Program-made: the position numbers and the translations under genes
Assembly: GCA_032622095.1 (NCBI GenBank)
Contig: CP136061.1
Location: 42,165,797-42,229,796 of the forward strand
Length of the DNA: 64,000 nt
Reading direction: 5' to 3'
Source of the DNA: Siphonodentalium dalli
Taxonomy: Eukaryota > Mollusca > Scaphopoda > Gadilida > Siphonodentaliidae
Notes under the pieces: generated by a model
What the model was told of the DNA's origin: nothing
Database searches by the model: none
What the model saw: the letters and a program-made list of their open reading frames with translations, nothing else
Shown here: one piece after another, positions 7,801 through 60,045 of the stretch
How the letters are laid out: each line of letters begins with the position of its first letter
Position numbering within the stretch: the first letter of the stretch is position 1

Positions 7801-10800
7801 TGGGAGATATCCCTGAAGAAACTATTTAACAAGTACACATGATAGCCATAGGTGGGAGATATCCCTGGAGAAACTATTTAACAAGTACACATGATAGCCA
7901 TAGGTGGGAGAAACTTTTGCTTCTTATTTTCTGTAACTGTAATAATAACAAAGCATGGAACATTAACAATGAAACAAAGCAAAAGGATTATGCGAGAAAA
8001 CTTACAAAATCACATTATAAAATTAGAAGAAACTCAAAGACATAGGAGGTATAACCATCATCTAATTATTACATTTACATAATCAAAAGTTGAAAAAACA
8101 TTTTCAACAATTTCTACGACTCATTTAAACCCAAAGTTAATCAAGATTTGACTTACTTGTAGTCAGCTAGGTTTGGGAGATTATAGGTCATTAAGCAGTC
8201 GAAGGCAGTTCTCTGTACATCGGAGTCAACATGAACAAGGAGCTGAAATTTAATTATAAAATAGACTATCAGTCATAAAAAAATCAAAAACTGTTCTCTG
8301 TCGGAATTCAGCATGAACATTAAGAGCTGAAATCATATTTGTAAAGCAGATTCAGAGACCAGCCTGGAGGGCAACTTGGGAGACATCTTCTCCCTAAACA
8401 TCTTCTCCCTAAAATGTGCCACTTCTCCCTATTTTTTTCCAAGAGAAGTGACTTCTCTCTGATATATCAATTTAAATATTTCAAGAGTATTTACTGACTA
8501 TAATGGGGCACTTTCTCATTATAATGAGTAAAATAAATGAGCTCTTGTACTGCATAAAAAGTATAGGCTCACAGAAAGGTGATAAACTTCAGCCTTTATG
8601 ACGTCTCCCTGGTAACAGTCTATTTCTCCATAATAATCTAAAATTTGAATTCGCTAGGCTGGTTACTGAGCAGATTATATGATTTCTAAGAAACAAAGTC
8701 TGTACTCTGGTATCAATGCATGATTTCATGGGTTTGTAGGAAGGCTGAAAATAGAATTTTAAGCATGTAAGGGCTATAACTGTCAGTATGTTATTCATGG
8801 GAGTAATGGTTTGATGGTTTAATTATTTTACAAAGGTGCCATAGTATACAAAATGGGATGATGTTTGATTACAAAGTATGTTTTTGGAATATGTTGTGGG
8901 CCAGCTCTGTATGGCACTCCACCGGAGAAGAGCTCGATTTATCTCCCTTGAAATCAGTCGTCTGCACTTCCAAGACAAAATTTCAAAATTGATATTTCTT
9001 TATTTTTTAAATCATCTTACATATATCTAGGTTCTATCAGCTCATAAGGTGATTATATAGACTGATATTCACTCTGTGATGGTCAAACATTGGTTAAAAT
9101 GATGATTCTGCAGTCAGTATAAGGGAGATAATTCAACTTGTAATGTGACAATTCCTGTACAAAATACCGACAGATAATGCTCTGACCATTTATGTATATT
9201 GTAACCAAGCATTCATGTGCTTTTTATCAATGAACATGGCACAGCAGAAGGTTATAGTACAGTACCCCGGCTCAAAATGGTGAAAATAGCCATAAATCGT
9301 GTATTGCTACCTCTACATCAAATTCAGCACAGTCCATAGAGCCTCCCATATATATTGGCCTAACAATATTTACCTTGACCTTGCTTGTAAGCCAGCGCAT
9401 TCTCTTTTATATGTGAGGCTCCCTATGGGAGACTCACATATATAAGAGAATGCACTGGCACAGGATCTTTCATGCTGCACTAGCGCCACTCCGGCCATGA
9501 AAGGGTTAAATTCCCAAAGTACTATTTTTCGCTTAAGTTTTAAATTTGAGTACCATGATGCGCGATTTCAAAAATGACGGAAATAATTCAGCAAAAGTCT
9601 CGTCTCCCATGGCAGTTCCCAAAAGCAGCATTATAAAACCACAAGCAGCGAGTAGAATATACATTTTCATATGAGTATTTCTATACTCTTGTTTTGTTAC
9701 AATATTCTATATAATTATGGTACATGCATTTAGGCATCATTGATAAGATATTTGCATATCATATAATATAAAACCTTTTTATTGATTGTGATTCACCATT
9801 TTACACCTGTTTGTGTACAAATAATTAACAATATATAAAAGCTATTTGTTAAAAAAGCTTTACTTTTCCGGTGGATTCACTAAACTCTTCATGAGTCATA
9901 CTATATTTTGCTCATTGTAAATTCACACACCACCAGCGCAAATTTAAATACAAATAATTTAAATGATATGGACTTTCACAAACTAAATAAATAATTGTGT
10001 GATAATTTCAGAGATTAAACCAAGGAAATAGAAATTGAAGACTAAAACATTAAAGGGGTACTGTACACAGAGATAGGCAATTTTTTTTTTTACTCCCATT
10101 GAAATAACTTTCAAGTTAGATTGTGTTCGTGTTATATGAGTTTCGTAAAAACCTAATTTAGGGAAGAAAATATTGATCTTGGAAAGAAAAATATTACGAT
10201 TTCAAACTACGCACCATGTTTTTCACCTTCACCGGAGAAGACGCAGGTCTCAGGAAGAACCGGAAGTTCATTGCTCACAGCTTCGATTGATGCATTCAAT
10301 CTCTTCCATCGAACAATCTCACTCCCTATAAAAGTACTTGACGCTTTATGATTCTTGTTTCTTTCTCCTTTTTTCCGAATCGGTTATAACGGGCCTTCCT
10401 TTTGCAGGTAACATGTTTTGTTTGCAACTCAATAATGTTCGCGAACGGTCGTCAATAAAAGACACGCAGCAGATGCGATTTCAAGAACGGTAACTCGTAA
10501 TGGCATAATTCGCCATTTTATGACTCCAGCCATAAATGAATTTATATTAAATAATTCAATTTTACTTTTACGATAGCCTGTTAACTGGAACGTTTTGAGT
10601 AGACATCGTCGACTCAAATTAGTTATTTTATAATATAATATTCATATTAGATCGCTATTGTTACCGGGAATTTATTGAAATTGGTGTACAGTACCCCTTT
10701 AAACTCACATCGTAATAGAGTTCTCTGAGACTAAAACATTAAACTCACATCATAATAGAGTTCTCTGAGACTAAAACATTAAACACACATCGTAATAGAG

Positions 10801-13800
10801 TTCTCCGAGACTAAAACATTAAACTCACATCGTAATAGAGTTCTCTGAGACTAAAACATTAAACTCACATCGTAATAGAGTTCTCCGAGACTAAAACATT
10901 AAACTCACATCGTAATAGAGTTCTCTGAGAATAAAACATTAAACACACATCGTAATAGAGTTCTCCGAGACTAAAACATTAAACTCACATCGTAATAGAG
11001 TTCTCTGAGACTAAAACATTAAACTCACATCGTAATAGAGTTCTCCGAGACTAAAACATTAAACTCACATCGTAATAGAGTTCTCTGAGACTAAAACATT
11101 AAACTCACATCGTAATAGAGTTCTCTGAGACTAAAACGTTAAACTCACATCGTAATAGAGTTCTCTGAGACTAAAACATTAAACTCACATCGTAATAGAG
11201 TTCTCTGAGTTGTGTTTCTTGATATATGTTCTTTGGATTCATGAATCTCGTGTAGATCTCTAAATGTGCTAGGAGTGACCTGCAACACAATTCAAATGAT
11301 TAAAGAATAACTATTCCATATAAGCATAAACAAAGCCTAGAAACCTAATGTGAAAACACAGGCAAGCCTGAGTTTAGTGTGCCTGTCATTTGCAGAATGA
11401 GGTCCCAAGAGGGTGAATTTAGTGATGCTATCCCACACAGCAGACTAGCATCACTAAATTCACCCTCTGGGGACCTCATTCTGCATGGGAGACATAGACT
11501 CAGATTGAAGTTCCCAAATGGTGAATATTGTGATGTACCCCTATTGGGAACCTCGATTATGCAATGTGTCATCTGGCAATTTGAGGATATCGAGAAACTA
11601 AACTAAAAATGAAATAGAATCTATGTGAAGAATTTTCTATAGAAATCTGATAATGAAGAAACTTTCCAGAGAAGATGAGACCTAAGCAGAATGAGGTTCC
11701 CAGAGGGTGAATTTAGTGATGCTAGCCCACTATACTGGATAGCGTCACTAAATTCACCCTCTGGGGACCTCATTCTGCAAATGACAGGCACACTGAACTC
11801 AGGTTTGAACACAGGGCCAGGAATCTACATCATAATTTGCCCGAAATTGGCAGCAAAATGACATAGAAGTAATAATTTATCGTTTTCTTAACCTACATAC
11901 ATAACTCAAACAAAACAGATAGTGAATGAGCTATACATCAATTGTAGAGGCACAAAATCCACAAATTTCCAAGTCAAATAAGGGCCGTAACTCTGATAAA
12001 AATTAATGGACAAAACCTGTAATATCTGGGTATCCTTTCCCCCAACCTGGACTATCAACATCCCAACGACAAAAAACTCTGATAAATAAAACCAGAGTTA
12101 CAAGGTGATATGTTCAGACAGACAGACGGACGGACAGAGCCCTCGACTATATGCCTACCGGGGTCGGGGGCATAATAACTAGGGATAGTTCCTGTCAAAA
12201 ATGATGGGTCTATACAGTAATGCCCTAAGTAATAAACTCCTTAACCACAGCTGAATTATGGGTAATTTTTCAGGATTTAGTCAGAAATATGGCTTGTTGC
12301 CATTCATCGAAAAGCTCTCACTGAGAGCTTTCCAAAAAATGGCAACAAGCCATATTTCCGACTAATTCCTGAAAAGTTACCCATAATTCAGCTGTGGTTA
12401 AGGAGTCGATTACTTAGGGCATTACTGTAGTTTAGTCGGTTACTGATGCAAGTGGTGTAACTCTATCATACAACTATCATGTACTTTATACAGAACATAG
12501 ATTGCTATAGAGTTTTCTGAAGAGTTCTTAGCGGTGCCCATGCTTTCGTATGCTAAAATACTAATCGACGACGGAATTTTTGACATTTTGGAAAATGTGC
12601 TATATCTCATCTTTAACCGAACAGCCTGATAATTTGCGTGTCGTATTCTAAGATGTATCACAACGTATGTTCCAAATTTGGGCTAATATGGACGTAAGAG
12701 TGAAAATTTATAAATGCGCAAATAGCGTGAATTGGTTACACGCACAGACAGACAGACGACAGGTTTATATAGAAATAATAGTATTACTTTGTGGCTGCTC
12801 TCCTCTTCATTTGTGGTTTGTTGTTCGACTCGATGATATCTCCCGTCTCCTCCTCCGTCTCGATGATATCTCCTGTCTCCTCCTCCTCCTCATTCTTCTC
12901 TTCAGCTGATTCTTCCGGCTCCAGAACGTCTTCCTTCAGTTTCAGTATGTTCTGCGTCTTAGCAAACGACGCATCAGACAAACAGTACTCATTCCTGAAA
13001 TAGAGCGATATCATTTATACAAATTTCCTATGTGCTTTGAGAACAATTCCTCCATTAAAACCTAACTAGAGATGGGTCTGTCCCAGGTGGGATTAAGGTA
13101 TACCCCACTGTATAAAATTTTAAAACATGGAATAACTCTGCAAAAAATGTCTGACGGACCTCATCGTCGCAGGTTCCAATGGTACTAAATATATGTTCCA
13201 AGTTTAAAACAATTTACTGAAAATTGGAGGAATAAAAGCTCGGACAAAATTCCCAGACAAAATTGTGTCCACAGATGGACGGATGTCTAGGCTTGCGGAA
13301 AGGCAGACAGACAAGCTGATTCCAGTATACCGAGCCCCACCCCAACCCACAACTCGTTGTGGGGGGTATAAAAACAGAATGGAAAATTAGAGCGGTAGTT
13401 TTGTTGACGATTTTCGCAAGATACTCGTCAAAATTGCAGAAATTTAAAACTCTTGTGTTTGACTTGCCATGCATGTTGTTGTGACAATGTCGTCCATGTA
13501 CATTTAGACTTTTGTGTTGATAAAATAATCGGAGAACCAAATCAAACAGTTTCGCAATATAGTTCTTTGGTTCTAGTGGGACTTTCCAAACTTAGCATAT
13601 GAGATTTTTTTTTTAAAAGAGTGTAAATATGCTTCCTTAAGAGAAAAGTTGTGCCTTCCGATACCTTCAATCTTCTCGCTTTCATTCAACCTTCCCGACA
13701 CTAGGTTAGCCCCTGTGTAAGTGCTTTCTCCCAAGTTGAAGCCTCTAGGCTAGTCCCTGAATTGATATGTTGCTTCAAAAGCTGAATATTTTGTGATGGA

Positions 13801-16800: not shown

Positions 16801-19800
16801 ACCCTGTGCCTCTGCATTCTCTTATATATGCGAGTCTCCAATAGGGAGCTTCCTGAAATTTTGCGATAACCCTGTGCCTCTGCATTCTCTTATATATGCG
16901 AGTCTCCAATAGGGAGCTTCCTGAAATTTTGCAAAAACTATGTCAATGCATTCTCCCATAGGGAGCCTCACATATATAAGGGAATGCATTGGCCTTATGA
17001 TATTTACTTGACCTTGTAAGCCAGTGAATTCTCTCATAGACTTGCATATAGAGAATGCACTGGCACATGATTTTTAATGCTGCACCAGCGCAGCTCCCGT
17101 CATGAACCCCATTTAAAATGATGGGAAACACTCCGGTAGGTTGATCAAATAGAAATGGAGAATAACCTTTCTCAAAGTAGCTATTTTTACAAATATTAAT
17201 CCAAATTGACAACAAACACCGTCATTCTTATACATTAGACTCCCAGTGGGGAAATCATTTGTGTTAGTTTATCGCCGAGAGCTGCGTCCCGAATCGAGAT
17301 CTAAATATTTACATTTGAACATAGTTCAGACAATGTTTTCTCTGGATTGGTATGGTCGATTTCTTAGAAATTTTCACAATGTTAGTAGAATGCTACATTA
17401 CCCGAGTTGGCATAGCGCCTGAGTACTAACTTATCAGTTCCACGCACCCGAAGTCAATAATGTCTTTAAATGCATGTATGACTTGTTGGAACCTCCAAAC
17501 AATATCTACATAAGTTTGAAAAATGCATATCAGAACATGGTGGAATATTTTGACTGCTTGCTTTCTTCTATTGCTGGAGAGTTTCATGCAAAAATTATTG
17601 GAAGGAAAAAATACCCCTTTTTTGTCTCCAAAAGATCATTTCTGCGCCTTCAATAAGTATGTCTGTGGCATATAAAGTCTGTATACAAGTAACTCACATA
17701 GTCATGTTCCTATTCAAGTCTGAGTTTAGTGTGCCTGTCATTTGCAGAATGAGGTCCCACTTAGTCTCATAATGGGCTAGCATCACTAAATTCACCCTCT
17801 GGGGACCTCATTCTACTTAGCCTCAACTTCTCTGGAAAATTTCTTTATTACCAAATTTCAATAGAAACTTCTCCACATAGATTCTATTTCTTTTTTAGTT
17901 TAGTTTCTCTATATCCTCAAATTGGCAGACGACACATTGAATTATCGAGGTTCCCAATGTGTGTACATCACAATATTCACCATTTTGGAAATTCAATCTG
18001 AGTCTATGTCTCCCAGAGCAGATGAGGCCATGCAGAATGAGGTCCCCAGAGGGTGACTTTGGTGATGCTAGCTCACTAAGCAGGATAGCATCACTATATT
18101 CACCCTCTGGGGACCTCATTCTGCAAATGACATACACACTAAACTCATACTTGATTCATGGTCCTATTGATCCAGGACCGGAAAGAAATGTGACTCAAGC
18201 AACAATCAATTATAGTTAACCATTTCTATACTAAACACTCATTGATGAGTAGTTATCCCATATGAAATGTTCAGATAATAAATTCAACAAATGACCATAG
18301 GTCGTTCGCTGACCTTATTAACTGAACATTTCCCAATAATAAATTGGACTCCATCTGTACTTTTATTATCTGTTGTCTGCTTATTTTTCCTGAAAACCCC
18401 CTACAGATGAAAAATAGACCATTCCAATGTTTGCTTTGATGACTGAGAGGGAGAATCTATTTAGTATAGAAAGGGTAAAGGATCCAAACCACCATGGGCC
18501 TTTAACATTAAATCAAATTTCAAGTAACTTATGTTTTGCATTTTATAATAACCATGTACATATGCTATATTCTATAGAAAGCCGATGTCGAATATCACCA
18601 TTATCAATCACATTTGTATTTGATTAGCTTTGTATTTGTTTCCATTTAAGTGGTTTTCTCATTTAAATTTTACCATAACTCACATCATCTTCATTTTGTA
18701 AAAGGTCAAGGTCAAATTGTGAAAGAATCCTCAAGGACAGCAACCGCACCTGGAATAAAAAGTTAAATACAATGTTAAACCTTTCATGACGGGAGCTGCA
18801 CTGGTGCAGCATTAAAGACCCTGTGCCAGTGCATTCTTTCTCCCACAGGGAGCCTCACATACATAATAGAATGCACTGGCTTACAAGGTCAGTGTAAATA
18901 TTGTTAGGCCAATGAATTCTCTTATATATGCGGGGCACCCTATGGGAGACTCGCATATACATGTATAAGAGAATGCATCGTCGCAGGGTTTTCCTAAAAA
19001 TTTCAGGAAGCTCCAGTCATGAAAGGGTTAAACAGTTGCAGGGATGTTCTTTCTTCAACATGGGGCCAAATACAAACCCCTTTTCATCAAGAATGTCCTT
19101 TTTCAGCCAAGCCTTGAAATAGTGCGCCTGTCATTTGCAGGATGAGGTCCCCAGAGGGTGAATTTTACACCTCAGCAGAATGAGGTTCCCAGAGGGTGAA
19201 TTTGGTGATGCTAGCGCGCTATGCGGGGTAGCAGCACTAAATGCTACACTCTGGGGACCTCATTCTGAAAATGACAGACACACTATTTCAAGGCTTGTTT
19301 TCAGCCAACCAGGTATTTGAAATAATCTTAGGACATACCTGTGGATCATAAGAAGTGAGGCTCCAGTAACTATATCCTACAGGGAGCCTCACATGGATAG
19401 AATGATGTAATGCAGGGTGTCGTCTGCTCACATATGCGGGGGGCTTCTTATGGGTGAGACATACCTGTGGATCATAGAGTGAGGCTCCAGTAACTATATC
19501 CTACAGGGAGCCTCACATGGATAGAATGATGTAATGCAGGGTGTCGACTGTTCACATAAGTGGGGGGGGGGGGTCCTTATAGGCGAGACATACCTGTTGA
19601 TCATATGGAGTGGGGTTCCACTGCCTATATCCTACAGGGAGCCTCACATGGATAGAATGATGTAATGCAGGGTGTCGTCTACTCGCGTTTGTGGGGGGGG
19701 GGGGGGGGGGGGGGCTCCTTATGGCTGAGACAAACCTGTGGATCATATGGAGTGAGGTTCCACTGCCTATATCCTACAGGGAGCCTCACATGGATAGAAT

Positions 19801-19918
19801 GATGTAATGCAGGGTGTCGTCTGCTCACATAAGCGGGGCTCCTTATGGGCGAGACATACCTGTCGATCATATGGAGTGAGGTTCCTGTAACTACAGGGTG
19901 TCATCTGCTCGCGTTTGT

Positions 19919-19968
<50 letters not shown>

Positions 19969-22900
19969 CTCCTTTTGAGTGAGACATACCACATGGATAG
20001 AATGATGTAATGCAGGGTGTCGTCTGCTCACATAAGTGGGGGGGGGGGGGGGGGGGGGGGGGCTCCTGATGGGCGAGACATACCTGTGTATGATATGAAG
20101 TGAGGTTCCTGTAACTACAGGGCATCATTTGCTCACGTTTGTGGGGTGGGGGGCTCCTTATGGGCGAGACATACCACATGGATAGAATGATGTAATGCAG
20201 GGTGTCGTCTGCTCACATAAGTGGGGGGGGGGGGCTCCTTATGGGCGAGACATACCTGTGGATGATATGAAGTGAGGTTCCCATGCAGACTGGAGTAAAC
20301 TGAACTGAACAACTGTTTGTCCTTCTGATCAGCTGCGACAGTAAAGTAATAGTCAGCTGCCCTCAGGGCGTGGACTTCTGATGGATGTCTCCTGGAAATA
20401 CAAATTTTAATCGTCATGAATCCTTTATTCAGGCTTGGCATTCCAATATCGAGGAACTCATATAATTATATTGTGCTACAGAATTAATGCCTCAAATTAT
20501 CTAATATTTAGAAAAACATTTGTTCTAAATATCAACTGTTTTCAGAACTAAGGCCAAACAAAAAAAGGGTTTTGGTTCTCGGGCAATTTTGTTTACAAAT
20601 CAACGAGGGAGGGTATTATTTTTATTTTTTTCTGCACATAGTAGAAGCATGGACAAAGATACCTTCCTCTGTCTAGTAATAACCAGAAATGTAGAGGGAA
20701 CTGTTATGCATATAAACTCATTTAATCTTATATAAAAATGACATTGTACTACCAGTGTATGACTGGGATTACTGAACATTATATAATGCCCCTGACATTC
20801 ACTATTGTTATTGTTGTCTAAAACTGATACCTCTCCATTCTAATATGTGATCCTGAAATTCATCCTGTATTTTTGTCATAACATTAGGCATCGCAATAAA
20901 AAAGCCAAACGCAGCCCTTGTTATTCAATGTGGCTCAGCCTGAGAACCAAAACCATTTTATTTTTGGCCTATTTACAATAATGAGGGAATCCACATAAGG
21001 ACTTCAGTTTCTATTATGAGGATATAAAATAGGACGGAAATGATCTGATCAAGCCTGAGTTTAGTATGCCTGTCATTTACAGAATGAATGAGGTCCCCAG
21101 AGGGTGAATTTAGTGATGCCATTCTGCATAGTGGGCTAGCATCACTAAATTAACCCTCTGGGGACCTCATTCTGCTTAGGCCTAAACTTCTCTGGAATGA
21201 TTCTTAAAGGACACATTGCATAATCGAGGTTCCCAATGGGTGTACATCACAATATTCACCATTTGGGAACTTCAATCTGAGTCTATGTTTCCCATAGCAG
21301 ATGAGGCCATGCAGAATGAGGTCCCAAGAGGGTGATTTTGGTGATGCTATCCCACTATGCAGGATAGCATCACTATATTCACGCTCCGGGGACCTCATTC
21401 TTTAAATAATAGGAACACTAAATTCAGGCTTGGATCTGATGGATAGTCAAAGGTGCAATTAAGTTTACTCCTCAATAAAATGCTGTCGAAAATGCCAGAC
21501 CTGGTAATCCATTCAAAATCATTACTGTCTGCGAGAAAATAAATCGAACATGTTTCATTGCATATTTCAGTTTTTTGGTAGCCATTTGCAGAACAGGACA
21601 AAAACAACAGAAAATATCAAATATTATTCAACTACATTTGCAATAATATGGCAGACATAAACACTCTATACTGATTCATCTTTTCAGACATTGTTTTTTT
21701 TAATGATTTTTCCTCCAAAAAAATAGTTCTGCAAATGGCTACCAACTACAGGGTATCTGCCCATTTCTGGTGAATGAATTCAAGGAGTTTCAAGGAGGTT
21801 CCAGTAGTCAATTCAAGGATTTTCAAGGACTGCCCCGACAATTTTCAAGGAGTTTCCAGGAACCAACTGTTGAACATTACATGTCATACCACGTTTTCCA
21901 CCATAATTTTAGCATTTTGGGCTTTTTATGAAGGTCATGAAATGAAATGAAGGTCATCGGAAGCGGATGTGATTTTTTCATTTCGGTTTCGTTTTTGTTA
22001 ATTTGTACGTTTTGATGTAAAACACGGGTTTCTAATGTTGAATATCTATATAATATACAAAATACCTCGATCCGATACAATAAAAATACACTAATTACGG
22101 TACCTGAGTTTGAAAAGCTCGGAACTATTTTTTGTCATGTTCAATTTTATGATGCTTCATAGGGGGATCACATAATTGAAATAGACTCGAGAGAATTGGT
22201 GTTGGCGGGAAATGGAGTTACGTCCCATATACCAACAACAATACCACACTTCATTGGGGGGGGTCACACAATTACAATTGACTCGAGAGAATTGCCGCCA
22301 GGGGAAATTCAAAATGGAGTTACTTCCCATATACCAACAACGCGTTCGGAACTAAACTATATTTATTGACTCCCGATGAATCGATATACCTGGGTTTTAG
22401 GGCTACACAAAATTCCAGGGTTTTCAAGGGCCCTGGAAAATTGATTTTCCAAATCAAGGAGTTTCAAGAAATTCAAGGAGCCGCGGATACCCTGCAACAA
22501 AACTAAAATATACCATGAAAAATGGTTTTTATTTATCGTCTCGCAATCATGATTTCAGATAGTAGACAGAGTGTAGACAGAGTGTAGACAGTAGACAGAG
22601 TGTAGACAGAGTGTAGACAGAGTGTAGACCCTAGTTGGATTCCCGTGAGTTTTTTGCAAATATGTGAATTTCTTGTAAAATTCTCAAATGACGACCTAAA
22701 AAAATATTCTTTTTTTTAAACCACCTTTTTACATAATTATAACTTATCATATTGTGAGGGTAAACAGGCGTTGTTATAATGCTATAGCATACATTGGTTA
22801 AAGAGGATAATGATTTTTACCTTCAAATTGATAGTTTGAAATTGAGATTTTTTTTTAAAGCCTTCTTAAGTTCATAAAGCTAATTTGCACTGTTATATAT

Positions 22901-40900: not shown

Positions 40901-43900
40901 TTTTACCCAACCACGAAATCAACATCCAATGAAATAATTATCTCAGAATTGGTAAAGTAAATCTCAATATACGAGATGGAAACAAAGATTGGGCATCAAG
41001 TCTGTTTTCAGCATGTCTTAAAATGGTTTGACAAAAAAACATGGAAGACGAGATGAATTGTAATTAATTTAATTTGTCGTGGCTTATTCAATTGTTAATA
41101 TTTGTCATCTGATAGTCATAGTTTGTATAAACAACGTTCGATGAAATGGTCTCTTCATAAAGGTTAATGTTTTCACCACACGCAGGTTACATAAAACAAT
41201 AAATGACTACCTCATCAGCGTGTGACATGAAGCCTGTAGCTAGGACACTGATTATGTGATGCCCTTCCGGTGACGGAATACCTGGAGGTCCGATTTATCA
41301 ATAATATTGACTCAAAGATGTCATAACCCTGCTATTGTAGGACCTGTTGATATGGATATCTGATCCACGAATTCATGTTCCCACAAAATAGCGTTTTTAT
41401 AAGAAACCACGAAAATTGAGGCCGATGAAATCAAAGCCATGCACAGTATTATAAATTACCAGACTTCATTATTTCTTTCTGAACCCCTAAATCTAAATGA
41501 GTGATCTACTGATCATACCTATAAACGTCCTTGATATCTTGTAGAAGGTAGCGCCACAGAAACTTGAACAGGTAACCCATACACGATGTTATCTTACCTA
41601 TAAAGTCCTTCATATCTTGTAGAAGGTAGCGCCACAGAAACTTGAACCGGTTGCCATACACGATGTTATCTTACCTATAAACGTCCTTGATATCTTGTAG
41701 AAGGTAGCGCCACAGAAACTTGAACAGGTAAGATATACACTATGTTATCTTACCAATAAACGTCCTTGATATCTTGTAGAAGTTAGCACCACAGAAACTT
41801 GAACAGGTAACCCATACACGATGTTATCTTACCTATAAAGTCCTTCATATCTTGTAGAAGGTAGCACCACAGAAACTTGAACAGGTAACCCATACAAGAT
41901 GTTATCTTACCTATAAACGTCCTTGATATCTTGTAGAAGGTAGCGCCACAGAAACTTGAACAGGTAAGCCATACAGGTGAACAGCTGTTCCAGTAACTCC
42001 ACATCCTGAAGTGACTTGTTCAGACACACAACCAGAATGTCGAAGAACTCTTTGAAGTGTCTATAGAAGTCAGACTGTAGGTCTCGCGCTAACTGTACAA
42101 CCAAACTAGAGGACAGAAAAAATATATTTATGGGTTAACTAACACAGGTTAGTGGGTGCCTGACAAGGTAACACATCTCCCCGGGTCAACAAAAATCACA
42201 CCTTGCTCTCTGGAATGACAATAACAATTCAGAATGGAGCACTGGCTGACAGACCTTACGGCCTTTCCGTTCGTCAACATAAGTATAGTGAAAGAAATAA
42301 TGGCTTACAACCTATCCGTCATATAATTTCCCCACATAATGAAGGTGGTACATAAATGTATGTATGTCAAAAGAAAGGGGAGGTTGTCTGCTAGGCATAT
42401 TAAAGTAGATTTGAGGCTAAATATGATGATGACCAAGGTCCCAATTTCTCGCAGACAAATAAATTGCTCCTTGTTCTGATGTCATGAATTTTGAGGTGGA
42501 AGCTGGATCCTGGAGCAGTTTATTGGAATTTTGAAAATAGTTTTAGAACGTACCCCACAAAAATAAGAGCTCTTTCCATCAATGTATCACATTATTATAA
42601 TCAATAAATTTGAAAAATGATCAAGGAAATATGGGTTGATTCACAAATCGGATTGAACTTGGCACTGAAAGGGTTAACATAAATTTGCCTGCGCTCAAAC
42701 CTTGAAATAGTGTGTCTGTCATTTGGAGAATGAGGTCCCCAGAGGGTGAATTTGGTGATGTTAGCCCGCTATGCGGGGTATCATCACTAAATTCACCCTC
42801 TGGGGACCTCATTCTGCAAATGACAGACACCCTATTTCAAGGCTTGCCTGCGCTAAAAAAATTGCAAGGTCCAGAATTTTTCCTCAGATGTGCATAACTG
42901 CTTGCTCAACACATAATATAACTTCAGTTTACAATTGTAATTTGGTCCATTGTCATGACAGACTTTTGGCAGGGCTGGCAGTCTAGAAAATCCAGGAGGG
43001 CTATTAATAGCCCTCCTAGATTTTCCTTGGAGGGCTATTTAGCTTAGCCCTCCTCAACTTTTACAGTTATGATTTATTTTACCTGAGTTACTACTGCTCT
43101 CAGTTTGTCTATTTTTGATGTTGTTTAACTTCATCAAAATTAATTTTGTTAGGAGGAAAAAAAATGTCCAGAGTTGTGAATGTCACATCCCCAACAGTAT
43201 TGGTGTTGAATCGATTAGCGATTTTAAGGAATCGACTAGTCGCCACAGGTAATCGACTAGTAGTTGACTAGTCGGACCCCTTCTATGCCCATATGACTTA
43301 TAAAATGGGCCATGTGGCATCGCAATTTTGAGTATCCAACTCTTTGTTTCAGAACTTTCAAACAAAAAGCATGTGAACTATGTATTCTCCCGTTTTGCCT
43401 GTGAGTCTCCCAATTTGATGTCTTAACCCGGCTCTCCTGCAACCTCCATATAATCTCACGGTTTGGGGAATGCAGGTAATAAAACCATTTTATTTAAACA
43501 AAATTGTCGCCGATAACCAGGAAATAGGCAAGTCTCGTTAGTAAGTCTCGCTAATGAGATGTCGGGTGTGTTCTATTGTCTCTCTGAATAGGCGCCTCAT
43601 GTCGCGGGGGTGGGGGTATGGGTGTTAGAATCTATTTAGTTACTGAGTTGACTTTACCAGCTTGACTTGTCGTGAAATATGTTTCGTATATCATTGAAGC
43701 CATTCTGTTGCATCATTACTCTAGTATTAAATGTGCCACAGTGAGAAGTTATCACTGGTCAATTGCGTCACAACGAACTAGACAGTGTTCAGTCAGCAGC
43801 GACACTTCATGTCTTTGATGATCAACGTAAAAGAAACCATGCCTACACGTGCATATTGGGTTCAGTGCAGGTCATGGAGTTCACCACCTGTGCATGACTG

Positions 43901-46900
43901 ATGGCAGTGGCATCCTTAAAGGAACAATGCAATAAGGCTTTAAGAAGTTAATATGTGTTAACTGTTACATATTACGTGATAATATGGCCGTGCAATGGCA
44001 CTGCTGGCATGAGAGCACATAGGTAGTGCTTTTTCCCCTGACTAATCGACTAGCAGATTTCAGGATCGACTAATTTAATAATTGCATCGACTTCGACTAG
44101 TCGATTAATCGTTTCAACACTACACATTATGGTATGGTGAATATTTAATTTATGTTTTATATCTAATGATAATTAATATGAACCACAAACAAAATGTAAG
44201 AGTGTTTGTACAATTTGTCAGTCGAAGTCCAACCCATGCACTTGGGTGAGTTTGTCAATGTTTAAAGCAATTTCTGTTGTGTAATGTTACATAAAATACA
44301 CAATCAAGTAGCATATTAAATCCAGTATATTTACAGTTGAATTGTTACAAATGACCGCTTTATTTGTCATAGTAATCCATATTCCATCACCGATTACAAT
44401 TTGGCATGACTGCGTTCAAGTCGCTTTGTGTAGATTTTTACTGGGTGTTTGCAATTGGGGACATAGAGAATAGTTTCTCAACTTTATTTTTTGAGTAACA
44501 TTGCACACAAGAATATTCACTTGGAGACATTAGCTCATTATAATTAAAAGATTGTCAATTGAAGCGAAAAAATGAAATGACACCACCAATTTTAGTGCTA
44601 TACAATTTTATCTGATAGGAACTGGAAACGGAACAAAAGGTTGAACTCAATCGAGAGAGTGACATTTGGTTATCACTATCCACAAACACATGTTGATTTT
44701 ATCCAGTGAAATATATTGTACGATCAATCTAATGAAGAGAAATAATTTATTTGTTTCTTAAAATGTGTGAGAATCGATCAAAAGATCCGATTTACGGAAC
44801 ACTTCGTTCCGGAATTTAATGATTCCGCCATTTGACATTACCATCAGTTGCCAACATCAGTCATGCGCACACTGAACAAAATAACTCTTTACGATTTTGA
44901 TTCTCATAAAACGCAATAAAATAACTAAATAAATTTCCTATTGCAGACGAGGTGGGCTATAAAATTGTTTTGCAATTCTAAAGGGCTCAAATATATACAC
45001 ATTGACTAGATACCGTGGATCCCGGTGCCTGAAACTATACCCGCAAAGATAGTGTCATAGTAGATACACCGATGCTGTGTTTATTATTTTTATTTCCTTG
45101 TATGCAATACATTTAAATAACAAACATGTGTGAAAATTCCAGCCTTGGAAAATTCTAGGCAGGCTGTAGGCGGGCAGCCCGCCAGCCCGCCTTGAGATTT
45201 CCAGGCCTGTTTTGGTCGGGTCTGGCTAAAAATTGCTGATTATCAAGATCTAGTCTTTGTTATATCGGTAGTCCTTGCCGTTGTTAGGTTGTTCCCTATT
45301 TGTTTTTACTTATTCTAAGGCCTAAAAAAATAATGTTTGTTTCCGCTAACCCGACCGACCCTATTTAAAAGCGCCGAGTCTAAACTTTTTATTCCAATCG
45401 AAAAACTGACTTTTAAAAAATAATGGTACCTGTGAATGTTTCACGCATTTAACAGACATAAAAGTATGGCGGTCGCTTCCAGTGGAAATACCCACATACT
45501 ATAAATAGATACGTATCTCCCATTGAAAACAACCAGAGCTTTGGAAAATAAATTGACACCACAACAACAATAACACTGACTACCTCTGTGTCAATGTATG
45601 TTTATGTCGCGGTACGATATGTATCATGATACAGGCCTCAGCTTACCAGGCGAGTAGGGCGAAATAGTCGCCCTCGACGCCTCGAAGTCGCCTTAGTGTC
45701 GCGTCAGGGAGAAGTGAAGTCGCCTTCCGATTTCGTCGGGAGTCTCCCGATTTTGTGTCATTTCTCCAGTGCATACTCCCGATTGGGAAACGAAATCTCC
45801 CTATTCAAAAGATAAAACCCGAAATTAGCCTACGGCTGTAGCAAGCGATAAGCCATGCATGCTATAGTGTTACAAATCAATTATGAATATATCGCCTGCG
45901 AGTCAAACAGTGACAAAATGTTGACACAAGGTCGACTCCTTTTGTTTAACAGCGCTGAGTAAGTAAATGCGGTCTTCAATGTCCAGACAAGGATTATAAT
46001 ATATCAAACAAAGAAGCCTTCTGTTTTGGCCATACTTAATAAAGTGTTGGTTTCTGCTCGTCCCGACTGACTGCTTTAAAACCGCCGACTCAAATTATTA
46101 TTATATTGCCGATTTAAACATTTTGTTTGTTTTAGTTCCGTTTCCGTCTTTGTGGTATTCCGTGTTTTTACGCAATAACAGAATGCTAATCGAACGGACC
46201 TCAAATAATTCTATTGAATCGTACTCCCTTTAAATTATCCGATGTTACCTGATGTTACTGAATATATTTGACGACAAAATTATCCGAGAGCACCATTTTA
46301 TAGTGTGCAAATAAAGTTTTAATCGTTGTATTGCCTTGTTCGAAATAAAACGTGATCCATAACCGGAAAATCGTAATTTTATTCCCAATGATTCAGTGAT
46401 TTTAGAGACTCGGTAGTCGATGTCAAGACTCAAGTCAAGGCCGTTAATTGTGGCATATATATGCAAACCAAATGCAACAAACAATCTATATTACATTTAA
46501 ATGAAAAATTTGAATTTTTTTTCCATGATAATGTTTTTTTCGTTTGTTTAACCTCATATTAAATAAATTATCAGATGAAATTATTCTCCAGTCTCTCACT
46601 TCTCCCTATTTTTCTCTCACTTCTCCCTATTTCTGCCAGAGGGAGAAGTCACTTCTCCCTATTCTCAACCTGCAAGCTGAGGCCTGTCATGATACACATG
46701 CCACGATACGATACATATCTAGATATATATCTTGAGTCAATGATAACTATATGTTGTCATGTTTTATTTAACCCAAATTCCGACTGATGGTACTAAAATA
46801 TACATATGGGTTAATTTCATGATTTCATCACACATGTTTGTTATTTAAATGTATTGCATACAAGGAAATAAAATTAATAAACACAGCATCGGTGTATCTA

Positions 46901-49900
46901 CTATGACACTATCTTTGCGGGTATAGTTTCAGGCACCAGGATCCACGGTATCTAGTCAATGTGTATATATTTGAGCCCTTTAGAATTGCAAAACAAATGA
47001 TAGCTAGTGTTCTAAAAAGTCCTTTTTGCCCCCAATTGCATATTTTCCTAACAGAGGATATTAAATGAAATATTAATTAATGCAGCACTAGTCCAAGTCT
47101 TCTCGTACTAAAACCAGCTAAGATATTGGTATGGCGAGATGCTGGATTTTAGTCCGAGATCGCGCCCATAGCCTTCTTATGACACGAGTTACGCCCAGGA
47201 TCTGTGGCGGGAATCTGTTATGTATTTTACTGGATTTACCTAACAAATCAATACATGATGCTATATACATCGGAAAGAGAGACATTGTATGGTCATAATG
47301 GTGTATAATAATCTAACTTTAATGTTAAATTACACATAGAATATTCCGGTTGATAGCCACAAACATCGCTTTTTTTTCTGTTTGTTTACGTTTTAACTGA
47401 AAGCCGAAGTGGTCCGAAGAATTCCGGCATAGTCCGGAGTTTTTTCTGGGTATACTAGTTTCCGTTTCTATATATAGCGCGGGGTTTTCCGAACAAAATG
47501 GCGAAAACCGATCGCCCCAACGTCAAATTTCCTATGCGCTTTGAGAACAATTCCCGCACTAAAAACTTAACGACATAATGGAGGATCAGAACGGTAGTTT
47601 TGTTGACGATTTTCGCAAGCAACTCGTCAAAATTGCAGCAAATTAGAACTCTCGTGTCTGACTTGACATGCGTGTGATTTTCGTCCATGTGCGTTTTGAC
47701 TTTTGTGTTGATAAAATAATCGGAGAACCGAATCACACCGTTTCGAAATATAGTTCTTCGGTTTTCGTGGGACTTTTCAAACTTAAGGTTCAAAATTTAT
47801 ACAATTTTTTTTTTTTTTTTTTTGTGCATAACAAGAGCAGTATATTGCTCTGTTCGCTTAGTATATATCTTAATTTCGCGGAAGTCCACCAAATGTGGGT
47901 GAAATGTAGCGCCATTTTTATTCTAATGCTCGTTGTGTTTACACTGTTTTAAACTTTGAGAGGGTAGTAATTCCCGTAATTTATTTAATGTATTACATTT
48001 ATATCTTCAATGTTTACTTAATCTATTTATTTTTTATTTATTGACACACATAATTACGATTACAATGGAGAATTCATCGTAATTTGCGTGGTTAGTCGAA
48101 AATCTACAGAATATTTTCAACGGAAAATGCCGAACACAGTTCGCGAGGTCAACTGAGTTCGCACTTTTAAAAATTTGTAAACACTGCGGTAAATGTCTCT
48201 TTTCACATTGAATTACTGCTTTCAATTCACAACTGATGTGGGTTTCAGATCAAATAGCAGGTCTTCTGCAGAAAATATCCATTTATTGTCGCAATTGTGA
48301 TATTTTATTTCATATAATTGTGGTTTTTGTTTGAGCGGGTCATTAACGCTTAACTCGTGTCATAAGAAGGCTATGGGCGCGATCTCGGACTAAAATCCAG
48401 CATCTCGCCATACCAATATCTTAGCTGGTTTTATTACGAGAAGACTTGGACTAATGCAGCACTTGACTGCATAAAATACACCTGCTTCTCGGAATAGCTC
48501 AAGTAGGTCAATCTATAAATAGTCGAATACCTGGAAATATTATGTTTCCAGGAAGTAAAAGTACCCGGATGTCAACAATGTGAACAACACGTGGTATTAA
48601 TATTACTGTCGGCATTTGATTCCTTTGATGAATACCTCTTTGAACTGTGCACTTAAAAAATGTGCTTTTGAGTACACAGACTGCAAGCCAACTGAGACAG
48701 GGCAGAACATTAGGAAGAGATTATAGAGATGAATATAATTTCATATATTATATACACACTTTATTAGGCCTATTTATTTTAAGGAAGCTGCATTTTGCGC
48801 ACGTTTTTGTCCAAACTCCGATTTAAAAAAATTGTGTGCTTGCATTTGTGGCGCCCTGTAGCAACATACGTCAAACTAGTATGCAACACTGAATTTATTA
48901 AAGATTGGGAGATAACTATGCAGGGTTTGTCACATTCTGTGGTAATTACCTTATTTTACCTGATGCGAGGGTGATAATTGAGGCAAGAATTTAACCCTCT
49001 TTGGGTAGTTTTCAAGCAGGACCAATGTATCGCGATACACGGTATTTGCGTGTTGAGACAGATGCGTGTATCGCGAGCTTGTGTATCGCGGTACACCAGT
49101 GTGGCAGTGTCACGGTGAATCATGACACCACTACCGTAGCACGTTGTGGTGGCTATCTATCTGGACGAATGTGTCCACGGTGGAAGCAAAAAAGAGATCA
49201 GATCGATAGACAACGAAGCCAAAATTGAAGAACTCTTATTTTTAATCCACCGGATAAGACTGACTTCAGTAAGGTTAAAGTGAGGGGCCGTACATCGGCG
49301 CCGTTCGACATACATGTTGAAATTAAAGTTAAGGAATTGTCAGCATTCAACATAAACCATATCGAGTTTGTTTGCGGTGATGGAGAGATCATGATACTAT
49401 GGAAATCACCACACAGAGGAATGCATTTGATATTCTTATGAAGAAAGAAATATATCATCTGTAACTTTGAATCTGAGTTTCTTGTTTCTATATCCCACAG
49501 GTTGACCACCTTGAGACTAAGAAGTCCACAATGTGAGTTCATATCAAGTATTATACACGTATTGTTAAAAATATAGAAAAAGAAAAATATTTAATAAAAA
49601 AAAAGTTTTGCCTGCCTACCGTTCCTATTTTTTTCCAGCTCGTTAGCGGAAACAAACGTCTTTTTTTTAGGCCTAATACAGGAGCCATTGCTAGGCTGTT
49701 ATTTGTTTTACTTACTCTAATATACGGGCCATTGCTAGGTTGTTACCTATCCATTATACTTACTCTAATATAGGAGCCATTGCTAGGTTTTTCACTATCT
49801 GTAACTGATTTTTCAACGTTTCCACAATAGCATCCTGAAAAAAAGTGACAACATGGACATGGCTTGTTTGAAATTTCAAATTATATGGACGTTTGGAGGG

Positions 49901-52900
49901 ATATAAAAACAAGCCTACATGGAAGAGTTTGAACAATAATTATTGACATCACTGAAAAATGAGTTACGTTTCTTAATTTTTATGTAAATGTTAATAGTTG
50001 TCCCGATCGTAAATTAGATGACTAATATGACCTGTTGTTTAAGCTAACATTTTAAGTTCTGCAATCTTTATCCAAATTTACTAAAAACAAGTGATAATTT
50101 CTCTGACTTTCTGTCGGGGGTAGTAACCGGTAGTTGTGGACTGTGCATGCTCAAGACAAGATTGTGAGTATAAAATGAATATCAAGCACTATTTGATTTC
50201 AGCTGCGAAATCATGGTGTATTCTTGGTTATCTCCACTTGCAACATAATCGAGTCGTGTGTACATAAAAATCGTTGATGGAAAGATCGTAGGGTAGTCAT
50301 TCATGTGGTTAACCATGGCTTACGATATCCTCATATGCAACGACATCGCAATCGTGTGAACCACTTTCCACGATTTTGTCGGGCCCAATTCCCCCATTTA
50401 TAATTGATTCGTGGTCGTCTGAAAGTTCACTATTAACATGAAGTTATTAAATGATAATCAGACCACAAAAAGTAAATTTCCTGTTTCTCATATCTCAGGC
50501 CCATGCATGTTTGAAATGCCGGAAAAAATTATAATCGGAACAAAATAACTGTGGTACATTTCTATTCAAATTTGCATTTAACTAAGACCCATTTCCCCCT
50601 AATCAAATTTCCAATTCATTACCGTAATTTGTAACCATGTGTTAAGGGGTTTCCACACATGAGCTATCTTAGGAGGTGGAAAGTTTAGATGGACCTACAC
50701 AGAAAACTTACTTAATTGTTAAGCTAGTGCATTATCTGAAGGAATCTATGCTATCTGAAAACCACATCAAGCATATATATAACCATAGAAATGATTGGAA
50801 ATAATTGGAAATGATTAACTACCATAAAAAGTACATGATCTGAAATAGTGCAAGGCTCGAATGAGTAAGTAACCCTTCACCCAACAAAACGGCCAAAAAC
50901 GCCCAAATAAAGCTTCAACAGCCTAAAATATCTTTGGTCTGTCTCAATAACACCATACAAATATGGATATCATTGGAACCGGTTCATTGACCACATTGTG
51001 ATGGTTACAGTTATGCCCTGTGCCAATGCATTCTCTTATATATGCGAGTCGACCATAGGTCGCCTCGCATATATAAGAGAATGCATTGGCCTTACATTCT
51101 TTAACATTTTTATAATATTTTTCTACATTCTTTGACAATTTTATCATTTTTAATATGTTAAGCCAATGCATTCTCTTATATATGCGAGGCGACCTATGGT
51201 CGACTCGCATATATAAGAGAATGCATTGGCACAGGGCCGTTCTGTTGGGTAAAGGGTTAATAGAGAGCAATACAGCTTCAAGACAGTTAACAGAATGTTA
51301 GTTTGTGCTGGAAATTTGTAAGAGAATGCATTGGCACAGGGATTTCACCAAATTTCAGGAAGCTCCCGTCATGAAAGAGTTAATAGACGCACCTCATGAT
51401 AAACGAGCTGAGGAAAAGTGCGCACTTTGTCTGCTACTTCCTTCTGGAATTTTCCTGTGAGTGAAAAAAACACACAAAATAGTATGTACTAGTATGTTAT
51501 AGAAAACAATATATCATAGTACATGTATATATAGATATTCATGATATATATGCAAGTAACCCAAATGAGAGTTGTTTGCTCAGGCAAGGTTTCCGCTAGA
51601 GGGGGGCAGTGGGTCCCTTTTAGGGTGCCTTTCTCCTGGCCCAAATTTCCCCTCCCACAATACTTTACCCATATAAGTCCCATTACATTGATTAATACTT
51701 ATATATATGTGTATCTTCCACAAAAACAAATCCAACAGGGAATGATAAACAATTGTAATTGTATTTCCCAGCTGACACTGACCGCTATAGAACCATATCA
51801 TGGATAAATAAGTCTGGTCGCCGCCGATAAACTAATACTAGATATTATCAGTTGGTTGCATGGTCTGACATTCAAGGCCGAGTTTAATGTGCCTGTAATT
51901 TGCCGAATGAGGTCCCCAGAGGGTGAAATTAGTGATGCTAGCCTGAGATTTTTACTAGTATAGCTGAGTCCTGAGACTCTTCTGGGCAGTATAGTTTTGA
52001 ATCATTTGCTTGAAACTTTACTATATCTCAAATCTATCAACTCTGTTTCAACCCATAACCATGTGTTATTTTTGAAAAGCATCAGAGATAAATATCCAGA
52101 AAGAGAAATCATTAATTCATTATTCTGGGTTCTGCACACTTATACAGAATAGTTTCACAACTGAGATCTGAAAGCTTACCTTACTATATACAGTAATGCC
52201 CTAAATAATCGACTCCTTAACCAAAGCAGAATTATGGGTAACTTTTCAGGATTTAGTCGGAAATATGGCTTGTTCCCATTCATCGGAAAGCTCTCACTGA
52301 GAGCTTTCCAATGAATGGCAACAAGCCATATTTCCGACTAAATCCTGTTACCATAGCCTGTTAAAAGCTATTCAGAGCTTGTGATAAGTAGAATATTTTT
52401 ACATTTGACTTTAAATTAATTTATCTTCTCTTACCATATCCAATATATCATAAATCAGACCATTTATGTAAATCTTAGCCGAAGTCATCATGAAATCATT
52501 CAATAGTATACTCACCAAAGTGGTCAGTGCAGTTTAGTTCGGACCATTTGTGTAAAGCCTCACCAAAGTACGTTGAGTCATTCTGAAATAAATAAATGGA
52601 GATTCCGAAGTAACTTTCATGTATATAGTACAATATAATTATAATATGTAACATAAATAATAAAACCGTTTACATTCTTGTTTACATTCATTTTATGTGA
52701 ATGAAGCATTTGTCTAGGTACTAAGAGAAATGTTCCTATCTGAATTTTGACAAGAGACACTAATTGGGACATTAGTATTGTGCCAATAATTATTAATTAA
52801 ACAAATTAATTTCTATTTTTGGCCAAAAAAGGAAATGTGGCAATTGGCACTATTAAATATAAAATTAATTAACCATGGCCTGGGTAGCTATATAATATTT

Positions 52901-55900
52901 TGGGCTGAGATACGTCTGGTTCAGTGTCGAGCTAGTGGCCTACATGTATATTGGTTTAAACTGAGCAACTTTTAAATATTTTAGGCTGACATACATCTCG
53001 TTCAGTGATAAGCCAGGGTTTCCGCCAGGGAACGCGACGGGTTGACAAAAATTTTGTCTGCTGGGAGATAATTTAGATTTTTGCCACTGAAAAGTAGCCA
53101 TTTACTTACACCTGAGACAAGAAGCAGAAACATTGAAGTTTCGTACAGAAATCAAACTGAAACAGAGCATGTTTCTTTGACCCCCAAGTTAACCCTTTAC
53201 CCAACAAACCGGCCAAAAACGCCCAAATAAAGCTTCAACAGCCTAAAATATCTTCGGTCTGTCTCAATAACACCATACAAATATGGATATCATTGGAACC
53301 GGTTCATTGACCACATTGTGATGGTTACAGTTATGCCCTGTGCCAATGCATTCTCTTATATATGCGAGTCGACCATAGGTCGCATCGCATATATAAGAGA
53401 ATGCATTGGCCTAAAAAAAATCTTTTTTTAACACTTTGTACCAATTTTTCTACATTCTTTAACATTTTTATAATTTTTTCTTACATTTAAAAAAAATAAT
53501 TTAATATTTTTCTACATTCTTTGACAATTTTATCATTTTTAATATGTGTTAAGCCAATGCATTCTCTTATATATGCGAGGCGACCTATGGTCGACTCGCA
53601 TATATAAGAGAATGCATTGGCACAGGGCCATTCTGTTGGGTAAAGGGTTAATGAACTAAAAGCATGTAAGCGACACAATGCGTAATTTAACATGGGATCT
53701 ACTGATTTTTACCCAACTTGTAGGTTGTTGAATACAGCGATAAAGCTTTGATTGACAAGCCATTGAACGCCTAGTAGAACCAAGCCTTAGTTTAGTGTGC
53801 CAGTCATTTGCAGAATTAGGTCCCCAGAGGGTGATATTAGTGACGCTATCCCACATAGCGGGCTATTATCACTAAATTCACCCTCTGGGGACCTCATTCT
53901 GCATGGCCTCATCTGCTATGGGAGAGAAAGACTCAGATTGAAGTTCCCAAATGGTGAATATTGTGATGTACACTCATTGGGAACTTCGATTATGCAATGT
54001 GTTGTCTGCCAATTTGGGGATATAGAGAAACTAAACTTTAAAAAATAGAATCTATGTTAAGAAGTTTCTATAGAAATTTGACAATAAAGAAACTTTCCAA
54101 AGAAGATGAGGCCTAGGCAGAATTAGGTCCCTAGAGAGTGAATTTAGTGATGCTAGTCCGCTATGCTAAATTCACCCTCTGGGACCTCATTCTGCAAATT
54201 ACAGGCACACTAAACTCAGGCTTGAGTAGAACAGTAGTTCACGTTTCTACAACAATGCCCTAAGTAATCGACTCCTTAAGCACAGCAGAATTAAGGGTAA
54301 CTTTTCAGGATTTTGTCGGAAATATGGCTTGTTGCCATTCATTGGAAAGCTCTCAGTGGTTAAGGAGTCGATTACTTAGAGCATTACTGTACATGAAGTT
54401 CACGTTTCTACGTGCAAGGTAAATCTTGCAGCGAAATAGTCAAGCAAATATCAATTTATCGTGCCAGGAAATTTCACGACATTGACCAGACATTGACTGG
54501 AAATTTTTTGGCAGGAAAGCGGACCATGTGTTATTGTTAACGTAGATTGAGGCCCAAAAGAGGGAAAAGTTACAACCGGTGTCATCACCATGCCAAAGGA
54601 TAATGAAATCAGAGAATTTAGACCAGAGTTACAAGGTGATATGTTCAGACAGACACAAAATTCACAATTTCCCAGTCAAACAAGGGCCCTAACTCTGGTA
54701 TAAATTAATGGACAAGCTCGAAATATGTGGAAATCCTTTCCCCCAACCTGTGCTATTAACATGCCAAAGGACAACAAAATCTATTAATTAACACCTGAGT
54801 TACAAGGTGATATGTTCAGATCGACAAACAGATGGAGCACTCGGCTATATGCCCCAAAATTCCTATGGGTGTCGGGTGCATAATAAAGAGTAGGAACGGT
54901 AAGCATAATGTTAAGAAATAGGGATTTACAAAATACGAAATGCCAAACAAAAATCGGTGCTAGAAGGTTTGTTTGATAATAGCAGGGTTTCCACCAGGGG
55001 TTAGGGGGATGGTACCCCAATAACCGCCTATAGTACTATAACAACACATGTTCACCCTCACAATATGAGCGATATGTTCAAAGTATGTAAAAAAATGGGT
55101 TAAAAAAAAAAAAAAACCCGTGTTTTTTTCATTTACATGTAGAGTTTGACATGAAAATATTTTCCAAAAACACATAGCATTATTTAAACTATGAACCCAA
55201 TTAGGGTATGCGCTCAGGCTACCATCTGATATCATGACTGTCTGCGAGAAAATAAATAACAAATTTCAATACATATTTAACTTTTTTGGTAGCCAATTGT
55301 AGAACTATTTTTTGTATCGTGTGAAGGACCAATAACAACATAAAACAACATTAAAATATTATTCAACCACATTTTCAATAATCTGGCAGACAAACACTCA
55401 ATAATGATTCATCTTTTCAGACGTTATGTAGTTTTATGGTGATTTTTCCTGACAATACTACAATTAATCATTTGCTTTATAAATGAATTGTATAGGAGAT
55501 ATTTTGATTAATATAGTGTCCCAATGTATATGTGCAATAGATTATAATAGCACAGTAAACAGAAAATAGACATAAATTAAAACAAATTATTGGACCCTTT
55601 TGACACAAACTTGTTAATAATTATTGCTATGACGTTGATGTTTTAATTCACGCATGACATCATGAATATGTTATAAATACTCTTCAAAAGGGTTAAGCTA
55701 TTGGCCTATACTAGTATGAATTTAAACAGAGCAGCTTTAGAAAATTTTGGGCTGACATCAGTTTTAAGCTATTGGCCTATATGGGTTTTAACTGGGCATC
55801 TTTATAAAATTTTGGGCTGACATCAGTTTTGAGAATGTTTATAATATTTTGGGCTGACATCAGTTATAAGCTATTGGCGTTTTTGGGTTTTAACTGAGAA

Positions 55901-59340: not shown

Positions 59341-59399
59341 CCCCCTACCAAAAATAAGATATTTTTTTCAATATTATGGTGCTATTCAGACAAAATAGA

Positions 59400-60045
59400 A
59401 CCTAACCTATAGTAAAACCATGTATTGGTTTCTTTGACAGCCATTGGTGTATCAATAAGAGAGCAACCTAACCTATAGTAAAACCATGTATTGGTTTCAT
59501 TGACAGACATTGGTGTATCAATAAGAGAGCAACCTAACCTATAGTAAAACCATGTATTGGTTTCATTGACACATTGCCTAACCTATAGTAAAACCATGTA
59601 TTGGTTTCATTGACAGGCATTGGTGTATCAATAAGAGAGCAACCTAACCTATATTAAAACCATGTATTGGTTTCATTGACAGGCATTGCCTAACCTATAG
59701 TAAAACCATGTATTGGTTTCATTGAAGACATTGGTGTATCAATAAGAGAGCAACCTAACCTATAGTAAAACCATGTATTGGTTTCATTGACAGGCATTGC
59801 CTAACCTATAGTAAAACCATGTATTGGTTTCATTGACAGACATTGGTGTATCAATAAGAGAGCAACCTAACCTATAGTAAAACCATGTATTGGTTTCATT
59901 GACAGGCATTGCCTAACCTATAGTAAAACCATGTATTGGTTTCATTGAAGACATTGGTGTATCAATAAGAGAGCAACCTAACCTATAGTAAAACCATGTA
60001 TTGGTTTCATTGACAGACATTGGTGTATCAATAAGAGAGAAGATA
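59400..60045. repeat. 67/43-bp higher-order minisatellite
   Basis: Full unit CCTAACCTATAGTAAAACCA, GTATTGGTTTCATTGACAG, ACATTGGTGTATCAATAAGA alternates with a shorter unit lacking the last block. On the minus strand each unit ends TTTTACTATAG followed by GTTAGG, a donor-like junction, but no UTP20 exon phase fits. Confidence 0.92.

Follow-up and report, generated by a model that had tools for sequence, protein, structure and literature searches.

The window, a stretch of 64,000 nt, carries on its minus strand the 5' part of UTP20, which we modelled as 26 exons (E1-E26) running from position 56449 down to position 1677. Exons were placed by tblastn with a human UTP20 sequence as a guide, together with reading of the splice sites. 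The joined exons form one open frame of 1052 codons with GT at 26/26 donors and AG at 26/26 acceptors, and residues 3-1050 of the product align with human residues 18-1067 with an E value of 4.7e-218. A fragment of the protein matched PDB chain 7mq8_SP, the human 'small subunit processome component 20 homolog'. The exon numbering of the original prediction, which had been made from the letters of the window, is the same as that of our model. E1 is preceded by a pyrimidine-rich stretch and AG and so has its own acceptor, with at least one further exon before it; when the minus strand between 56450 and 64000 was searched with simple motifs, no convincing candidate for the first coding exon emerged. 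Also upstream of E1 is a complex array with 46/66/111-nt units (59399-60039), with no exon tied to it.

Table 1 Exons, repeat arrays and exon-derived copies in the 5' part of UTP20 (window coordinates)
Feature	Position	Strand	Description
UTP20 E1	56369..56449	-	model, protein match; internal exon, exon 1 of the original prediction
Intron 1 array	55736..56347	-	65-nt unit without donor GT; begins near +3 of the E1 donor
Two diverged E1-junction copies	52891..52998	-	keep donor-like GTAT
UTP20 E4	49764..49834	-	gene model
E4 array	49673..49799	-	48-nt unit, 2.7 copies; covers last 36 nt of E4 and donor
Lone E4-junction copy	45277..45318	-	intron 4; 79% over 42 nt, weak; 4.4 kb downstream
UTP20 E5	41911..42105	-	gene model
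E5 array	41512..41975	-	78-nt unit; covers last 65 nt of E5 and donor
Lone E5-junction copy, decayed	40780..40849	-	shortly before E6; 1.1 kb downstream
E6 copy, acceptor (-23) and 34 nt of exon	38765..38821	-	intron 6; 57 nt, 100% identical
Intron 8 array	37236..37339	-	27-nt unit; begins 8 nt into the intron; junction not in unit
E11 3'-part copy	30417..30474	-	intron 11; 92%; ends 9 nt short of donor
UTP20 E14	25359..25487	-	gene model
E14 array	24935..25381	-	45-nt unit; covers last 23 nt of E14 and donor
UTP20 E17	20256..20391	-	gene model
E17 array	19332..20281	-	irregular 124-142-nt unit, poly-C runs; covers last 26 nt of E17 and donor
UTP20 E23	11189..11279	-	gene model
E23 array	10699..11209	-	40-nt unit; covers last 21 nt of E23 and donor
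E24 copy, acceptor and exon start	8263..8350	-	71%; immediately upstream of E24

Arrays and copies derived from exons

A 30-nt probe (-20 to +10) was taken at each of the 26 modelled donors and copies were counted at 75% identity or more. Same-strand downstream copies were found for E4, E5, E14, E17 and E23 only, and after each of these exons the repeat unit consists of the last 21-65 nt of the exon, its 5' splice site and some intron. Six arrays built from an exon end and its donor had been claimed; the probe search upholds these five and leaves out E1. The arrays also have the layout ascribed to them, always extending into the intron, but this is no independent observation, as any donor-spanning tandem duplication yields it. 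All are minisatellites, as is the array beside E1, with head-to-tail TRF units of 40, 45, 48, 65, 78 and 124-142 nt, where about 10-100 nt or a little more is the usual range. Because poly-C runs break the TRF array at E17, we placed its upper (5') edge manually at 20281 from the alignment, also for the edge and unit-length tests below. The longest of these runs, 50 G at 19919-19968 (C on the coding strand), is accompanied by shorter ones within the E17 array.

Beyond the true donor we counted one extra donor-bearing copy in the E4 array, five in that of E5, nine in that of E14 and twelve in that of E23, and the E17 array holds six extra copies of the CAG/GTATGTC type and two of another type. 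Each unit of the E5, E14, E17 and E23 arrays has a donor-like site, with the true donor in the first unit, and GT is intact in 32/32 copies across these four arrays. At E4 there is a single further donor copy and the third unit is without a donor. We scored donors with a weight matrix derived from the 26 in the model; of the 33 extra copies listed, 23 come out level with their true donor.

At E1 the prediction of a donor-repeat array failed, as the units match from about +3 and have a gap over the GT. The stretch just 3' of the E1 donor, ATGTCAGCCCAAAATATTATAAA, is common to the 65-nt array of intron 1, whose units have a gap in place of the exon end and GT, and we found one weak candidate donor there in place of multiple donors. 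Two E1-junction copies 3.4 kb downstream (52998-52891) have a CCAGA-like exon end followed by GTATGTC or GTATCTC. The 65-nt array is probably derived from the E1 junction and then lost the donor; it is no row of donors.

Single copies of parts of E6, E11 and E24 (Table 1) lack the donor, as does a weak match to E13 in an intron, so local duplication is general in UTP20 and is not confined to donors. Among the exon-derived copies the multi-copy arrays are the donor-spanning ones, and the copies of E6, E11, E24 and E13 are single. Two further candidates for decayed duplications were rejected: the match for E2 falls within the range of shuffled sequences, and for E9 there is only a 14-nt look-alike (12/14) about 36 nt downstream, seen by eye.

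Several other repeats lie within the gene. A 28-nt array of six copies (29433-29604) comes to within about 26 nt of the E12 acceptor and has a branch-point-like CTGAC in several units by eye, a 42-nt perfect two-copy repeat (14801-14883) leaves a gap of about 22 nt to the E21 acceptor, and a 22-nt array of 20 copies in intron 9 (34729-35173) is distant from all modelled splice sites. Within E22 a 30-nt duplication (12829-12886) lengthens an acidic stretch in frame, with ETGDIIE repeated. Palindromic elements of near-identical sequence, with arms of about 100 nt and MITE-like by eye, are present at 7079-7274, 15302-15496 and 33112-33307, and related fragments recur in many introns. No hosted RNA genes that might act as drivers were found with Rfam gathering scores or ARAGORN, and a search for mobile-element proteins in 10 chosen minus-strand reading frames gave Pfam matches in 2/10, all below the cut-off.

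Overlap with donors compared with chance

Repeats occupy about 9% of these introns, and the original prediction held that six exons of 26 was far beyond chance. In a coverage test donors lay in repeats in 5/26 cases against 2.2 expected, and 6.1% of circular shifts gave five or more. A downstream copy was present for 6/26 donors and for 402 of 3000 random intronic points (13.4%), and an upstream copy for one of the 26 acceptors (E24) and 436 of 3000 random points; the same comparison with random points gave 0/26 for donors searched for upstream copies and 0/26 for acceptors searched for downstream copies. An array at a donor overlaps the exon through its first unit only, so a test based on unit length fits the structure better. 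By this test 5/26 arrays span a donor junction against 0.43 expected (P ~1e-4), and lower TRF thresholds gave 5/33 and 5/40 arrays spanning a donor, again with P ~1e-4; these values supersede a less cautious version with P ~1e-5. An edge test gave 5/26 against 0.94 expected (P = 0.002). The list of arrays used for the edge and unit-length tests includes one exonic repeat (12829). It omits runs of a single base, rows that overlap or lie outside 1677-56449, and the three period-103 TRF rows at 7079, 15302 and 33112, which look palindromic by eye.

At the 26 modelled acceptors no spanning array was seen against 0.43 expected, an absence that is weakly supported, and the comparison of donors (5/26) with acceptors (0/26) gave P = 0.051. 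Three arrays fall short of an acceptor, by about 22 nt at E21, 26 nt at E12 and 53 nt at E19. Within UTP20 donors stand apart from acceptors when spanning is considered (5 versus 0) and barely from random intronic points when coverage is considered (6/26 versus 13.4%). 'Far beyond chance' calls for caution, the unit-length result being strong and the coverage result weak. All of these tests are post hoc and concern a single gene. The donor bias is significant by the fitting test, yet post hoc, and the pattern itself is real and tidy.

Proposed origin and retention of the arrays

On balance we lean towards reading the arrays as minisatellites that arose from junction-spanning duplication and have been kept since the exon and true donor stay intact. 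Such an array would begin with a short tandem duplication across the boundary of exon and donor, and the introns of this gene hold many tandem arrays. Duplication across a donor leaves the exon and the first donor intact and places every extra copy in the intron, and the exon is the likely source of the units because it lies in conserved UTP20 coding sequence. The spliceosome would then take the first, exon-attached donor, which is transcribed first and closes the exon, and the extra donor copies would be removed with the intron and hence tolerated. A duplication spanning the acceptor would instead present the wrong copy first and would be expected to be purged by selection. Less certainly, selection may fix the exon copy and so maintain a well-matched partner for slippage or unequal exchange, purely intronic arrays being left to decay. 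Tolerance alone predicts about 0.43 donor-spanning arrays where five are seen, so this reading needs a retention step. It is supported by the five arrays across donors with none across acceptors and by the single copies of other exon parts, and it has against it that a diverged acceptor-side copy (E24) and an identical one (E6) exist.

In the four larger arrays the identity of units to the exon copy falls with distance from it, with rho of -0.75 for E5 (P = 0.08), -0.48 for E14 (P = 0.19), -0.99 for E17 (P = 0.0003) and -0.47 for E23 (P = 0.13), three of the four not being significant singly. When the last unit is omitted the values are -0.56 (P = 0.32), -0.27 (P = 0.52), -0.97 (P = 0.005) and -0.29 (P = 0.38) respectively. 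In the E14 array the copy at +90 is identical to the exon copy across 44 aligned nt and a different variant is common to the copies at +45 and +135, a pattern suggesting steps of two units in which the exon unit took part or was copied. The trend with distance and the E14 pattern both fit growth of the arrays next to an exon copy that stays fixed, but a resemblance between adjacent units tends to arise anyway.

One may ask whether the pattern needs a special cause at all, since in introns filled with minisatellites some arrays will fall on donors and the striking ones may have been picked out. The weakness of both coverage comparisons, and the fact that the pattern was spotted in one gene before any testing, lend this some force, but we think it unlikely given the outcome of the unit-length and edge tests. 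The alternative raised in the original prediction, that a donor-linked process seeds the arrays, makes donor junctions the start sites of arrays, with transcription-linked breaks or slippage of strands at the boundary as examples of a cause. The excess of units spanning donors with none across acceptors would be expected from it, as would the restriction of multi-copy arrays to donor-spanning units when the copies of E6, E11, E24 and E13 are single. Exon parts without a donor have been duplicated too, however, the difference between donors and acceptors has P = 0.051 and the mechanism is hypothetical, and we regard such start sites as unlikely too. The two processes originally offered, donor-linked seeding or retention, are both reasonable in view of the five spanned donors against no acceptor, with the richness of the introns in tandem repeats, the weak coverage, the P value of 0.051 and the donor-less copies on the other side; retention and growth of harmless duplications fits the data at least as well as donor seeding.

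Rows of U1 sites could also be useful, either by aiding exon definition or by guarding the pre-mRNA against premature 3' processing. Besides the intact GT in 32/32 copies and the many copies that score as the true donor, substitutions are fewer in the donor hexamers (4/192) than in the remainder of the units (76/1257; one-sided Fisher P = 0.012), and with the last units omitted the counts are 3/168 and 55/1085 (P = 0.036). A window permutation of the same constraint on donor hexamers was not significant (P = 0.08, or 0.12 without the last units), and selection keeping the donor copies, suggestive by the Fisher test, was set aside on this ground. As the E1 units have lost their donor and young arrays keep everything, a useful role for the arrays seems to us very unlikely. 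We give hardly any credence to the idea that the arrays are remnants of the birth of these introns, with exon sequence that contains AGGT having been duplicated in tandem. Such a route of intron gain is presented as demonstrated in PMC3443670, and the E5 and E17 junctions of the model do read AG/GT, but those of E4, E14 and E23 do not and 0/26 acceptors lie in a tandem array. Probes for the 26 acceptors found a copy for E6 only, located downstream in intron 6, and the acceptors after the five exons are without a repeat copy, so that the acceptor is not a copy of the donor segment and intron gain of this kind was rejected. It is likewise scarcely credible that the arrays are artefacts of assembly: sequencing is difficult through poly-C runs such as those of the E17 array, which reach 50 nt, but the unit variants occur in ordered patterns and there are decayed lone copies at distances of 1.1 to 4.4 kb.

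Precedents and choice of donor

A minisatellite in the human interferon-induced gene 6-16 (IFI6) was reportedly found by Turri et al. in 1995 to supply multiple splice donors. Downstream units of this minisatellite are described in the account of PMC4526556 as being used as donors, giving several mRNAs. By description the E5, E14, E17 and E23 arrays of UTP20 are alike in having a minisatellite with a donor-like site in each unit, and UTP20 differs from the IFI6 case as outlined there in that UTP20 has five arrays in one gene and that use of the downstream donors would mostly add stops. A precedent in a single gene is therefore known and what is new is the recurrence, with five donor arrays in one gene; among the open-licence titles and abstracts listed we recognised no other gene with several such arrays, which is weak evidence of absence.

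In human genes within segmental duplications, tandem repeats at exon-intron boundaries have been described as affecting splicing (PMC2812944). These are likewise of minisatellite size and placed on exon-intron boundaries, and the summary given there has them as variable, retained or spliced out in different cases perhaps, and able to create introns in recent paralogs. The conserved UTP20 differs in retaining its exon, with copies predicted to lie in the intron alone. The UBC gene is described as having a tandem array of dual-specific splice sites (PMC10809524), in which splice-site motifs also recur in step with a tandem repeat; as characterised there, the UBC sites serve as both donor and acceptor and separate coding monomers, whereas UTP20 repeats donors only and no acceptor is spanned. 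AGGT, the sequence expected of a site with such dual use, is read at the E5 and E17 junctions of UTP20. Intron gain by tandem genomic duplication, as set out in outline in PMC3443670, shares with UTP20 the tandem duplication of exon sequence with a splice site, but there the duplicate gives both ends of the new intron and in UTP20 the donor side alone is repeated. For earthworm first-intron minisatellites the excerpted report (PMC12783039) notes no splice-site-spanning unit.

The frame of UTP20 stays open across the 26 exons only when the first donors are used, and from this and the conserved protein we infer that the first donor is chosen. For E4, E5, E14 and E23 each listed downstream candidate donor would introduce a stop codon, which for E23 comes after five codons and for the other three at once. 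Since downstream donors mostly add stops, normal protein is expected only if the first donor is chosen. As 23/33 extra copies equal the true donor in score, strength alone cannot decide and position or order of transcription must do so. When identical donors were duplicated and set in competition in classic tests, the one closer to the acceptor tended to be favoured, and on this background use of the first copy in UTP20 would be worth explaining. The downstream units used in IFI6, as described in PMC4526556, likewise mean that use of the first copy in UTP20 cannot be presumed.

Were RNA to show clean use of the first copy, UTP20 would offer five natural tests of exon definition in one conserved gene, and it would point to a one-sided tolerance in which donor-spanning duplications survive and grow and acceptor-spanning ones do not. 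A broader possibility, which we consider doubtful, is that donor junctions are hot spots of array birth and growth in this lineage, with many genes carrying rows of equal donors from which the exon-attached copy is reliably picked. If that were true, nature would have set up a competition between 5' splice sites across the whole genome, open to study as an experiment on how they are chosen, and the extra U1 sites would perhaps do useful work. Within UTP20 the E17 array alone offers open in-frame alternatives to the first donor, one at +81 that would add 27 residues and a weak one at +39.
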